Shown in pieces: positions 12,041-34,659 of a DNA stretch of 34,898 nt. Every line of letters starts with the position of its first letter. Position 1 is the first letter of the stretch. The stretch is from Candidatus Krumholzibacteriia bacterium (GTDB lineage: Bacteria; Krumholzibacteriota; Krumholzibacteriia; LZORAL124-64-63), in contig JANTGJ010000021.1 of assembly GCA_024762975.1 (NCBI GenBank), forward strand, positions 1 to 34,898. The letters run 5' to 3'. The notes under the pieces were generated by a model that saw only the letters and a list, made by a program, of their open reading frames with translations, searched no databases and had not been told where the DNA came from. The position numbers and the translations under genes are program-made.

Positions 12041-12116
12041 TGGTGGAGATGAGCGGGTTCGAACCGCCGACCCCTACGTTGCGAACGTAGTGCTCTCCCA
12101 GCTGAGCTACATCCCC
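12041..12116 (-). tRNA. tRNA-Ala (anticodon CGC)
   Basis: Cloverleaf on the minus strand: acceptor GGGGATG pairs with CATCTCC, anticodon stem CTACG/CGTAG around loop TTCGCAA, T-loop TTCGAAC. CCA is encoded (12041-12043). It lies between tRNA-Ser(CGA) and the SRP RNA in one transcription unit. Confidence 0.97.
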
Positions 12117-12192
12117 ACCTGAATTCCAAACATAGTATCCATTCCGGTCCGCGTCGAATTCTTCCACGGCTTTCCGAGTCAACCGTGTCGAC

Positions 12193-12283
12193 TGGCGGAG
12201 AGGCAGGGATTCGAACCCTGGGAACATCGAAGATGCTCAACGGTTTTCGAGACCGCCCCGTTCAACCACTCCGGCACCTCTCC
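12193..12283 (-). tRNA. tRNA-Ser (anticodon CGA)
   Basis: Class II tRNA of 91 nt on the minus strand with acceptor GGAGAGG/CCTCTCC, anticodon stem GCGGT/ACCGT around loop CTCGAAA, a long variable arm and encoded CCA at 12193-12195. Confidence 0.97.
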
Positions 12284-12318
12284 GCCCGAACCGACTCACG
12301 TGCCCACAGGCAACCGTC

Positions 12319-12406
<88 letters not shown>

Positions 12407-17339: not shown

Positions 17340-17416
17340 TGGTACGCCCAGGAGGACTCGAACCCCCAACCTTCTGGTCCGTAGCCAAACGCTCTATCCA
17401 ATTGAGCTATGGGCGC
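17340..17416 (-). tRNA. tRNA-Arg (anticodon ACG)
   Basis: Minus strand, acceptor GCGCCCA/TGGGCGT, anticodon stem TTTGG/CCAGA around loop CTACGGA, T-loop TTCGAGT, encoded CCA. A34 is the expected substrate of TadA, which is encoded downstream at 12571-13047. Confidence 0.97.
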
Positions 17417-17434
17417 ACCTGATCTGTTCGTTTC

Positions 17435-17522
<88 letters not shown>

Positions 17523-17527
17523 CAATC

Positions 17528-17614
17528 TGGCGGAGGGCGGGGGACTCGAACCCCCAAGGGCTTTCACCCGGCGGTTTTCAAGACCGCTGCCTTACCAATT
17601 AGGACTAGCCCTCC
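17528..17614 (-). tRNA. tRNA-Ser (anticodon TGA)
   Basis: Class II tRNA of 87 nt on the minus strand, acceptor GGAGGGC/GCCCTCC, anticodon stem GCGGT/ACCGC around loop CTTGAAA, variable arm GGGT-GAAA-GCCC, encoded CCA at 17528-17530. It lies 5 nt before tRNA-Ser(GCT). Confidence 0.95.
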
Positions 17615-30948: not shown

Positions 30949-30973
30949 GGAGCCGGCTCATTCAGCCGGCTCC
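30949..30973. terminator. Possible bidirectional terminator hairpin between the barrel gene and comM
   Basis: Perfect 10-bp arms at 30949-30958 and 30964-30973 with a 5-nt loop. The comM stop codon overlaps the loop. There is no T-run on either strand, so termination is uncertain. Confidence 0.45.
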
Positions 30974-32502
30974 TGCAGATGTGGGATCCGTCGAAATTCC
31001 AGGGCCTCGCGAACCACCTCGACTTTCAGACTTCCTGTTCCGTCAAGCGCGGCGAGGGTATCGGCCACGCGCAGAGTCCGCTGTACGCCGCGCAGCGAGA
31101 GTCCCAGAGGCCGTCTGGCCGATTCCAGCAGTACACGCGCCTCGTCAGCCAATCGGCTCTCGGGAGACGTCCGTTCGCTCCGCAGGCGGTTGCGGGCCGC
31201 GTCCATCTGCCCGCTCGTCGGCCGGACCCGCCAGTCGTCGGATCGCGCGCGGGGCGTGCGTTTCCGTACCCGGCTCCGCAAAAATTCTCCCTTCCATTCC
31301 CCCACTTCGACAAACAGATCGAACCGATCGACGAGCGGGCCGGAGAGCCGGGCGCGGTACCGGGCCCGATCCTGGGCTGTACAGGTACAAGCTCGCCCTT
31401 CGCTCCCGAGATATCCGCAGCGGCAGGGATTCATGGCAGCCACGAGCTGAAAATCGGCCGGATAGCGTCGCGATCCGGAGCCTCGAACCAGGGTCAATCG
31501 CCCCTCCTCGAGCGGCTCTCTCAGGCCATCGAGCACTGCTGGCGCAAACTCGGCCAATTCGTCCAGGAATAGCATCCCCCCATGAGCCAGCGTCGCTTCT
31601 CCCGGTCGCATGGCAGCCCCCCCGCCGACCAGTCCCGCCCGCGTCACCGAATGGTGCGGTGCCCGAAAGGGACGCCGGTGTACCAGTCCGGCGCCCTGGA
31701 GCAATCCGGCGGCGCTATGGATTCGCGTCACTTCCATTGCTTCGGGCGGCGTGAGCGACGGTTGCAGATCCGCGATCAGGCGAGCCAGGCGCGTCTTGCC
31801 CGTCCCCGGTGGCCCGACCATCAGCAGATGGTGCCGCCCGGTCGCCGCGACGATAGCGGCCTTGCGGGCCAAGGCCTGCCCCGACATTTCCGCCAGTGTA
31901 CGCAACGCCCGTTGAGTGTATTCGGCAGGCTCGGGTTCGGTGAGGTTGTCCGTTTCCTGACGACCAGGATTGCAGCCCCTCCCGGACCTCCACCAATCCA
32001 CGACTTCGGCCAGGCTCCCGGCGGAGATCACTTCCAGCCCCTCGACCACCCGCGCCTCGTGCGCCTGCGATTGCGGCACCACGACCCGTCGCTCACCGCG
32101 AGCGGCGGCATCCAGAAGGATCGGCAACAGCCCTCGCACGGGGCGCAACTGCCCGAACAGCGAGAGTTCGCCGAGAAACAGGCTTCCTTCCCGGCGGGCG
32201 CAGGCATCACCGCCCTCCGCATCGACGAGAGAGCCCACCACCCCCATCGCGATCGCCAGGTCATAGGATGCGCCTTCCTTACGGATCCCTGCCGGCGCCA
32301 GATTGACCGTGATCTTGGCGGGAGGAATCCGGATGCCGGCGTGGCGAAGTGCGGCGAGAACGCGATCGCGACTCTCGCGTACCTCCGCACCCGGTAGTCC
32401 GACCAGATGAAATCCCGGCAACCCGCGACTCAGATCCACCTCGACGGTGACCGCCAATCCGTCGATTCCCGACAGCGCCCCTGTCCTGATGCGGATTCCC
32501 AT
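30958..32502 (-). CDS. comM: YifB/ComM-family Mg-chelatase-like AAA+ ATPase
   Basis: A 514-aa protein. The N-terminal Lon-like/ChlI domain (GIDGLAVTVEVDLSRGLPGFHLVGLPGAEVRES in pieces), the Walker A motif GPPGTGKT (230-237), the RPFRAPHHSVTRAGLVGGG segment (about 280-297), the Walker B-like MLFLDELAEF and the cysteines of NPCRCGYLG plus CTCT are all diagnostic. ComM is a helicase that promotes branch migration during natural transformation; many bacteria carry it without known competence. ATG 32502 has GGAGGAG directly upstream. It is convergent with the beta-barrel gene. Confidence 0.96.
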   Translation of the reverse strand: MGIRIRTGALSGIDGLAVTVEVDLSRGLPGFHLVGLPGAEVRESRDRVLAALRHAGIRIPPAKITVNLAPAGIRKEGASYDLAIAMGVVGSLVDAEGGDACARREGSLFLGELSLFGQLRPVRGLLPILLDAAARGERRVVVPQSQAHEARVVEGLEVISAGSLAEVVDWWRSGRGCNPGRQETDNLTEPEPAEYTQRALRTLAEMSGQALARKAAIVAATGRHHLLMVGPPGTGKTRLARLIADLQPSLTPPEAMEVTRIHSAAGLLQGAGLVHRRPFRAPHHSVTRAGLVGGGAAMRPGEATLAHGGMLFLDELAEFAPAVLDGLREPLEEGRLTLVRGSGSRRYPADFQLVAAMNPCRCGYLGSEGRACTCTAQDRARYRARLSGPLVDRFDLFVEVGEWKGEFLRSRVRKRTPRARSDDWRVRPTSGQMDAARNRLRSERTSPESRLADEARVLLESARRPLGLSLRGVQRTLRVADTLAALDGTGSLKVEVVREALEFRRIPHLQEPAE

Positions 32503-32684: not shown

Positions 32685-32713
32685 AAAAAAAGCGGGAAGC
32701 CGAAGCTTCCCGC
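32685..32713 (-). terminator. Intrinsic terminator of the histone-fold gene
   Basis: Perfect 9-bp arms at 32692-32700 and 32705-32713 around a TTCG tetraloop, followed on the minus strand by seven T (32685-32691). It lies 25 nt after the stop codon. One of the strongest terminators in the window. Confidence 0.96.
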
Positions 32714-32738
32714 CGATGAGAATCAACCGAACCCGCTA

Positions 32739-32909
32739 CTACAGGTCGTAGGGGCGAACCGTCTTGCGGCCATTGTCGATGGCACGCTTCTCAGCGATCT
32801 TAATCATCTCGCGCACCTTGGCGTCCAGGGCGGAGTAGAACTCACCGGATACGTTGCATTCGGTGACGGATTCCTTGGTCTTGCTCTTGCTGATGATCAT
32901 GTCAGCCAT
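32739..32909 (-). CDS. Small bacterial histone-fold protein (56 aa)
   Basis: A 56-residue frame from ATG 32909 to TAG at 32739, with GGGAGG 6 nt upstream. Residues 20-46 (VSGEFYSALDAKV, then REMIKIAEKRAIDNG) form one long amphipathic helix, like helix 2 of a histone. It is followed by GRKTVRPYDL, which fits the L2 loop and helix-3 start of archaeal histones (GRKTI-x-x-EDI), including the R-K-T and the conserved Asp. Helix 3 is cut short. The N-terminus (MADMIISKSKTKESV) is Lys/Ser-rich. It resembles the short bacterial histones such as Bdellovibrio HBb. Likely a dimeric DNA-binding or nucleoid protein. It has its own terminator and promoter and is divergent from the peptidase gene. Confidence 0.85.
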   Translation of the reverse strand: MADMIISKSKTKESVTECNVSGEFYSALDAKVREMIKIAEKRAIDNGRKTVRPYDL

Positions 32910-33043
32910 TGGGATCCTCCCTTAGAGAATTTGTTTCGTTCCTCCCCAACCCCGCCAGCGACGGTATCGAGACCAGCTGCCGGTGAGAAAGGACTTCAGA
33001 ATTTCTTGCGCCCGTGCTCACATGAACAAAGGCAAGCTGCGAC

Positions 33044-33072
33044 ACAATCGCCTCGACAGGCATCGCTGTCAA
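33044..33072 (-). promoter_or_regulatory. Likely promoter of the histone-fold gene
   Basis: On the minus strand a perfect TTGACA (33067-33072) stands 17 bp from a weak -10 GATTGT (33044-33049). The start point would give a leader of about 128 nt before ATG 32909. The -35 box forms part of an inverted repeat, GACAG (33055-33059) with CTGTC (33066-33070). Confidence 0.5.
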
Positions 33073-33081
33073 GACTAGTTT
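33053..33081 (+). promoter_or_regulatory. Possible promoter of the M20 peptidase gene
   Basis: TCGACA (33053-33058) and TAGTTT (33076-33081) are 17 bp apart on the plus strand. The same -10 hexamer serves tRNA-Glu. It overlaps and faces the minus-strand promoter of the histone-fold gene. Confidence 0.4.
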
Positions 33082-33155
33082 TCCATGCGGGCCCGATCCC
33101 GGAAATCGATCCGAAATGCCCGTCAGGCGTCAAAAACTACACGAAGGAGCATTCC

Positions 33156-34523
33156 ATGGCCAGCCAAAAAGTACTCGAGTACCTCGACGCACACCGTCAA
33201 CAGCACGTGGATCAGCTCTGCGATTTTCTGCGCATCCCGAGCATCAGTTCCCAAAGCGAGCATGAAGAGGACTGTCGGCGCGCCGCAGCCTTCGTCGCCG
33301 GCGAGTTGAAGGAGCTGGGCCTCGTAGTGGAGACCATCGAAGCCGGTGGACTGCCGCTGGTCTACGCGCAAAGCGAAATCAAACCCGAGCGCAAGACGCT
33401 GCTCTTCTACGGACACTACGATGTGCAACCGGTCGATCCGCTCGAACTGTGGGACCATCCCCCGTTCGAACCCATGATCAAAAACGAGATCGTCTACGCA
33501 CGCGGTGCGTGCGATGACAAGGGCCAGGTCTACACCCACATCAAGGCTCTCGAAGCCTACATCAAGCAAGGTATCGAGTTGCCCGTAAACGTGAAGTTCA
33601 TCATCGAGGGCGAAGAGGAAGCCGGTGGCGAGAGCATCTATCGTTACACCGAGCAGAACCCCGAGAAGCTGGCTTGCGATGCGATCATCGTCTCGGATAC
33701 GGCGCTGTACAACGAGAGCACGCCCGGCATCTGCTATAGCTTGAAGGGCCTGGCCTACATGGAGATCCAGCTCAAGGGCCCCGATATGGATCTGCACAGC
33801 GGCAGCTACGGCGGCACGGTGCAGAACCCCGGCAACGCCCTGGCCGAGATCATCGCCAAGCTGAAGGATGAGAACGGACATTGCCTGATCCCGGGATTCT
33901 ACGATGACGTCCTGGAACTGGAGCCGGACGAGCGCGCCGGGTTCGCCGAATTGGGCTACACCGACGAAATTCTGAAGAAGGAAACCGGTGCCCCGGAAGC
34001 GTTCGGCGAAGAAGGCTTCACGACCCTGGAGCGCATGTGGGCTCGCCCGACCTGCGATGTCAACGGGCTGGCCAGCGGATACGGAGGCGAAGGCGCCAAG
34101 ACGATCATTCCTTCGCGCGCGATGGCCAAGGTCAGTATGCGACTGGTCCCGAACCAGGATCCCGCCAAGATCGCCCAACTCTTCGAAAAGTATGTCCTGT
34201 CGATCGCACCGAAGGGTGTCGAGGTCACAGTGATCGATCATCACGGCGCCAACCCGGTGCTGGTCCCGCGCAAGTCCGAGATGATGCAGGCGGGCATGAA
34301 AGCGCTCGAAGAAGGCTTCGGCGCCAAGCCGGTTTTTATTCGCGAAGGCGGCTCGATTCCCATCGTTGGCACCTTCCAGGAATGCCTCAAATCCCCGGTG
34401 TTGCTGCTGGGATACGGGCTGTCGACCGACAACATCCATTCGCCGAACGAGAAGTTCCACCTGAGCAACTTCTGGCGCGGAGCCCGCACCACGGCGATCC
34501 TGATGGAGGAAGCCGCGAAGTAG
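33156..34523 (+). CDS. M20-family dipeptidase/metallohydrolase
   Basis: A 455-aa cytoplasmic zinc peptidase of the M20 dipeptidase (CNDP-like) group. Metal and catalytic residues are in place: His87 and Asp89 in YGHYDVQPVDP, Asp120 in GACDDKGQ, Glu154 (base) and Glu155 in EGEEEAGG, the Asp of IVSDTALYN, and His428 in NIHSPNEKF. The dimerisation part (DLHSGSYGGTVQNPGNALAEI in two parts) is typical. The start at 33156 has AAGGAG 6 nt upstream; the longer frame to 32589 crosses the histone-fold gene. It probably cleaves dipeptides; the exact substrate is unknown. Confidence 0.94.
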   Translation: MASQKVLEYLDAHRQQHVDQLCDFLRIPSISSQSEHEEDCRRAAAFVAGELKELGLVVETIEAGGLPLVYAQSEIKPERKTLLFYGHYDVQPVDPLELWDHPPFEPMIKNEIVYARGACDDKGQVYTHIKALEAYIKQGIELPVNVKFIIEGEEEAGGESIYRYTEQNPEKLACDAIIVSDTALYNESTPGICYSLKGLAYMEIQLKGPDMDLHSGSYGGTVQNPGNALAEIIAKLKDENGHCLIPGFYDDVLELEPDERAGFAELGYTDEILKKETGAPEAFGEEGFTTLERMWARPTCDVNGLASGYGGEGAKTIIPSRAMAKVSMRLVPNQDPAKIAQLFEKYVLSIAPKGVEVTVIDHHGANPVLVPRKSEMMQAGMKALEEGFGAKPVFIREGGSIPIVGTFQECLKSPVLLLGYGLSTDNIHSPNEKFHLSNFWRGARTTAILMEEAAK

Positions 34524-34584: not shown

Positions 34585-34659
34585 GTCCCCGTCGTCTAGT
34601 GGTTAGGACACCGCCCTTTCACGGCGGCAACACGGGTTCGATTCCCGTCGGGGATGCCA
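34585..34659 (+). tRNA. tRNA-Glu (anticodon TTC)
   Basis: Acceptor GTCCCCG/CGGGGAT, anticodon stem CCGCC/GGCGG around loop CTTTCAC, T-loop TTCGATT, encoded CCA (34657-34659). Its U34 is a substrate of MnmA, encoded at 19106-20248. Confidence 0.97.

Follow-up and report, generated by a model that had tools for sequence, protein, structure and literature searches.

The window, a stretch of 34,898 nucleotides from a Candidatus Krumholzibacteriia bacterium, carries a conserved gene, at a locus of shared gene order, for a 56-residue protein with a histone fold and a histone loop motif. By analogy with its characterised relatives, it is very likely that the product is a nucleoid-associated, α3-truncated histone of the face-to-face (FtF) kind, which would dimerise, assemble into a homotetramer and wrap DNA beside the HU/IHF proteins of the cell. 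The features on which the argument draws are as follows:

32739..32909, minus strand: FtF-type α3-truncated histone gene (open reading frame, homologues, phmmer, AlphaFold2, Foldseek, purifying selection)
32914..32923, minus strand: Shine-Dalgarno region AAGGGAGGAT, a few bases 5′ of the ATG, read from the sequence
32691..32714, minus strand: intrinsic terminator stem-loop, followed by a T tract at about 32685-32690
32924..33155, minus strand: intergenic region that must contain the histone promoter, the histone and M20 peptidase genes being divergent; no sigma-70-like match
33156..34523, plus strand: M20-family peptidase (dipeptidase-like), 455 aa, divergent upstream neighbour; family named by reading the sequence
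30958..32502, minus strand: YifB/ComM-like Mg-chelatase-family AAA ATPase, 514 aa, downstream beyond the terminator; family named by reading the sequence

The short frame noticed in the preliminary description, which gave no strand, lies on the minus strand and runs from the ATG at 32909 to the stop codon at 32739 (56 amino acids plus stop); its product is MADMIISKSKTKESVTECNVSGEFYSALDAKVREMIKIAEKRAIDNGRKTVRPYDL. Judged by comparison with its relatives, the frame is a genuine gene. Profile matches place homologues in 33 of the 38 genomes of its own family and in 48 of the 80 of the phylum, and its own genome has a single copy; the five family genomes that gave no match may be incomplete or fragmented assemblies, or may have lost the gene. 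Among relatives of at least 77% identity, pN/pS lies between 0.11 and 0.44, mostly below 0.35, which points to purifying selection. A chance or pseudogene frame would be suggested by the open stretch on the opposite strand, which runs on from GTG 32589 and shares the reading frame of the M20 gene; however, the low pN/pS values, the homologues in the family and the conserved ribosome-binding site and terminator leave that reading a negligible probability, and it is ruled out by the conservation data. Read on the plus strand, these bases only extend the peptidase frame upstream.

The ribosome-binding site, already described as good, reads CTCTAAGGGAGGATCCCA-ATG, and its AGGGAGGA-type motif is kept in nearly all close family members. 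The terminator, rightly called very strong, lies directly 3′ of the stop codon and consists of a 10-pair stem, GGCGGGAAGC/TTCG/GCTTCCCGCT, then TTTTTT, with a folding energy of -21.1 kcal/mol (z -2.3). Stem-loop/T-tract terminators are found at the equivalent position in nearly all relatives, with differing sequences, in an alignment judged by eye. The proposal that the gene has its own transcription unit draws on this terminator, on the divergent gene upstream and on the isolated position of the frame; a consensus scan of the upstream region gave no sigma-70-like promoter, and an alignment of the upstream regions of family members contains no conserved promoter block apart from the Shine-Dalgarno sequence. 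Since the ribosome-binding site and the terminator recur, the latter with different stem sequences, selection appears to act on the single-gene unit. With one ribosomal contig serving as reference, the gene has a codon index of 0.80, on a small sample (53 codons). Non-ribosomal segments of equal length from the window have a median of 0.65, which puts the gene in the top 4%, and for ribosomal segments the figure is 0.74; such codon usage fits good expression. In seven relatives, all of one genus, the open frame would allow an extension of 19-20 residues (MRSLRRATPSPE...), which is probably untranslated, since a Shine-Dalgarno sequence (CAGGAG) precedes the internal start.

The M20 peptidase gene adjoins the histone gene upstream in the loci of 33 relatives, and the order M20 peptidase (divergent), histone, yifB is common to the family, with some members having about 2 kb extra before yifB. 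The window also holds seven tRNA genes, four of them for tRNA-Ser: two minus-strand triplets at 12041-12406 and 17340-17614 (Ala/Ser/Ser and Arg/Ser/Ser) and, beyond the M20 gene on the plus strand, tRNA-Glu(TTC) at 34585-34659.

As modelled, the protein is of histone fold, in agreement with the earlier reading of it as a short bacterial histone-fold protein. The AlphaFold2 monomer model, built with homologues, has a pLDDT of 93.9 and predicts helix 1 at residues 8-14, helix 2 at 22-45 and a helix 3 of three residues. Thus, the long central helix that had been described is there, at 24 residues instead of about 27. The model shows what characterises α3 histones, namely a histone fold in which helix 2 is shortened and helix 3 is reduced to 3-4 residues. 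The near absence of helix 3 had been presented as unusual, but it is the norm of the α3 family, which is defined by an α3 of only 3-4 residues (PMC11390915). In Foldseek, the top four matches belong to HTkC, the archaeal FtF histone of Thermococcus kodakarensis (PDB 9f2c; PMC11390915), and to HLp, the bacterial FtF histone of Leptospira perolatii (PDB 9qt0-9qt2, here 9qt0; PMC12701072), with TM 0.87-0.90 and rmsd 0.9-1.1. The third-ranked protein is HBb (Bd0055) of Bdellovibrio bacteriovorus (PDB 8fvx, 8cmp, 9ezz; PMC10627809, PMC11317129), at TM 0.83-0.87, and the best PDB matches are all histones. The Foldseek E-values, from 0.004 upwards, are modest owing to the very small size of the chain.

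Searches with sequence give the same order of kinship. A single-sequence phmmer search of the PDB returns HTkC 9f2c at E 1.1e-6, HLp at only 0.09, an archaeal HmvA protein at 0.44 and a viral histone H4 at 1.4; HBb is absent even at E 10. With a profile of 70 homologues, HLp (7.1e-19), HTkC (2.7e-15) and HBb (3.6e-12) are all recovered, and the next true histone is far weaker. The archaeal nucleosomal histones HMfA and HMfB, which share the histone fold and the RxTxxxxD motif but have a longer helix 2 and a full helix 3, match this profile only weakly (E 0.01). The preliminary description had held that the lack of a histone-fold match by profile search would speak against its reading. Scans of Pfam and NCBIfam indeed give nothing above curated cut-offs: DUF1931 reaches 15.3 bits, below its gathering cut-off of 21.8, and CBFD_NFYB_HMF does not match the window protein, while 39 of the 70 homologues match it at E<=1. 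This is attributable to poor coverage in the libraries, since the homologues, the structure model and the profile of the family each point to histones.

Which kind of α3 histone is it? FtF histones are formally defined by a predicted or measured face-to-face homotetramer, and they are told apart from bacterial dimers by R48 and N52 of the FtF model, which the latter lack; the strongest positions of the FtF HMM are R48, N52, R54, T56 and D61 (PMC11390915). Residues R42, N46, R48, T50 and D55 of the window protein correspond to HMM positions 48, 52, 54, 56 and 61 with equal spacing, so that both residues missing from bacterial dimers are present, and these five are exactly the invariant columns among the 70 homologues. 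The invariance of N46, R48 and T50 is partly biased, as the homologues were collected with, among other patterns, the peptide NGRKTVRP, which does not include R42 and D55; unbiased genome searches retrieved the same family, the residue count itself being that of the 70 homologues. The GRKTV of the loop motif reported earlier as GRKTV-x-x-D is present, but the full motif is GRKTVRPYD, that is, R48-x-T50-x4-D55 (RxTxxxxD). The helix 1 lysine of FtF histones (HMM K16) is represented by K12, which is at least 90% conserved in the homologue alignment and aligns with HLp K17. In HLp, the five residues are R49, N53, R55, T57 and D62, of which R49, N53 and R55 form the dimer-dimer interface (PMC12701072).

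By sequence and by modelled fold, then, the window protein is closest to HTkC and HLp, both of them tetramers. HTkC, which ranks first both in the single-sequence PDB search and in the fold comparison, is of similar size (59 aa against 56) and likewise tail-less, with a truncated helix 3, a helix 2 that starts VS-x-EFY-x-AL, and the equivalents of R42, R48 and T50; it differs in being archaeal, in its longer loop 1/helix 1 and in sequence (about 42% identity). HTkC has E at the position of N46 and forms a tetramer, so N46 is not strictly diagnostic. HLp shares the fold (TM 0.90), the R/N/R tetramer residues, the RD clamp, the TVRP-x-D end and several DNA contacts, but it has an N-terminal tail and a helix 1/loop 1 two residues longer, and Leptospira has no HU, whereas the genome of the window has three HU/IHF-family genes.

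We propose, from these residues, a single-chain prediction and the closest structures, that the protein most likely assembles into a toroidal homotetramer, round which about 50-60 bp of DNA would wrap, and that it serves as an accessory protein of the nucleoid. As in its relatives, two chains would pair through the long helix 2 in a histone handshake, and two such dimers would join face to face at both ends to give a rigid torus. The dimer-dimer contacts would involve the C-terminus of helix 2, loop 2 and the helix 3 stub (R42, N46, R48 and the C-terminal carboxylate). Given that HLp wraps about 60 bp (PMC12701072), DNA of about 50-60 bp would, by analogy, follow the torus rim. Its putative contacts are S9, K10, K12, K49 and T50, together with G22 at the N-terminus of helix 2. 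The HLp DNA contacts S14, K15, K17, G29 and T57 map to S9, K10, K12, G22 and T50; HLp K21 is matched by T16 in the window protein and by K in many relatives.

The preliminary description had named HBb among the known bacterial histones, and the model of a dimer that does not assemble further and bends DNA has the shared fold, the RKTV loop and the similarly truncated helix 3 behind it, as well as the family-profile match and the next-best structural match noted above. HBb, however, is a strict dimer whose residues at the R42 and N46 positions are S and D, so it is the wrong model for a protein that has both residues, and the single-sequence search does not find it. Moreover, a true HBb-like protein elsewhere in the phylum (L149, IENARKDGRKTIMDRDF) looks different. 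On residues and search scores we therefore reject the HBb-type assignment, and a dimeric, DNA-bending histone is an unlikely account of the window protein.

Even less probable is a histone-fold protein that has given up DNA packaging for another task, such as specific regulation or interaction with other proteins. Histone-fold proteins without DNA binding are known, and the net charge here is only +2, with no basic tail, so that DNA affinity may be low; the HU family, besides, is present in 79 of 80 genomes of the phylum. Against this stand the retention of most HLp DNA-contact positions, the single copy at a fixed locus with strong family-wide conservation, the ribosomal-gene-like codon usage, and archaeal FtF relatives of similarly low net charge. 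The presence of HU also bears on the role of the wrapping tetramer that we favour: with three HU/IHF-family genes in the genome, the histone would be an additional architectural protein and probably not the sole one. Replacement of HU, as in Leptospira, is rejected on the same counts.

In trees of 58 columns, the IISKSKTK-type sequences of Krumholzibacteriota, Planctomycetota and Elusimicrobiota form one group, with support of 95/86 in one tree and 99/98 in another, the two having slightly different row sets. Relative to HLp, the members of this short-helix-1 group lack two residues in helix 1/loop 1, and they stand apart from the HLp/Bacteriovoracia-like group. Two independent archaeal origins of the bacterial FtF groups are not shown, because a single bacterial FtF clade is not rejected (AU p 0.55). 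Most Krumholzibacteriota members are tail-less, with net charges of +1 to +5, and many Planctomycetota members have lysine-rich tails, with +18 to +27 in several; five of these have long lysine/alanine-rich tails and charges in that range. A bolder and rather unlikely proposal is that the short-helix-1 clade is a distinct functional class, in which DNA would take a different path round the FtF torus owing to the modified helix 1/loop 1 and, for most Krumholzibacteriota, to the missing basic tail, the histone working with HU and not replacing it.

To our knowledge, the only bacterial histones characterised in depth are HBb, a dimer, and HLp, a tetramer from a genus without HU. The present histone is a well-conserved addition to the known FtF kind and leaves the kinds of known histone unchanged. 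Its novelty is modest and lies in a well-supported bacterial FtF clade with a helix 1/loop 1 two residues shorter, mostly tail-less in its own family. The lineage had been called little studied, and no paper joining Krumholzibacteriota and histones was found in the library searched, although the sequences may already be included, unnamed, in a survey. The main text of PMC10627809 does not name the phylum, and the histone adds a phylum that goes unmentioned in the main texts of the histone surveys consulted. An FtF histone inherited vertically at a single locus, in a genome with three HU/IHF genes, offers a case for how a wrapping histone and HU share a chromosome, and the short-helix-1 clade can inform the origin of bacterial FtF histones.

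Other histones occur in other families of the phylum. A second FtF-type histone (L142, 1096-1497, genome G046), with a lysine-rich N-terminal tail (KKVARKKKTAAKKKKTAARRK), is close to Acidobacteriota/Myxococcota forms, and its genome encodes the short-helix-1 type as well. The HBb-like protein mentioned above (L149, 970-1164, genome G039), of the bacterial dimer type without the R/N tetramer residues, is likewise a second histone, the same genome carrying an FtF-type one. Another α3 histone (L146) also occurs among these families.
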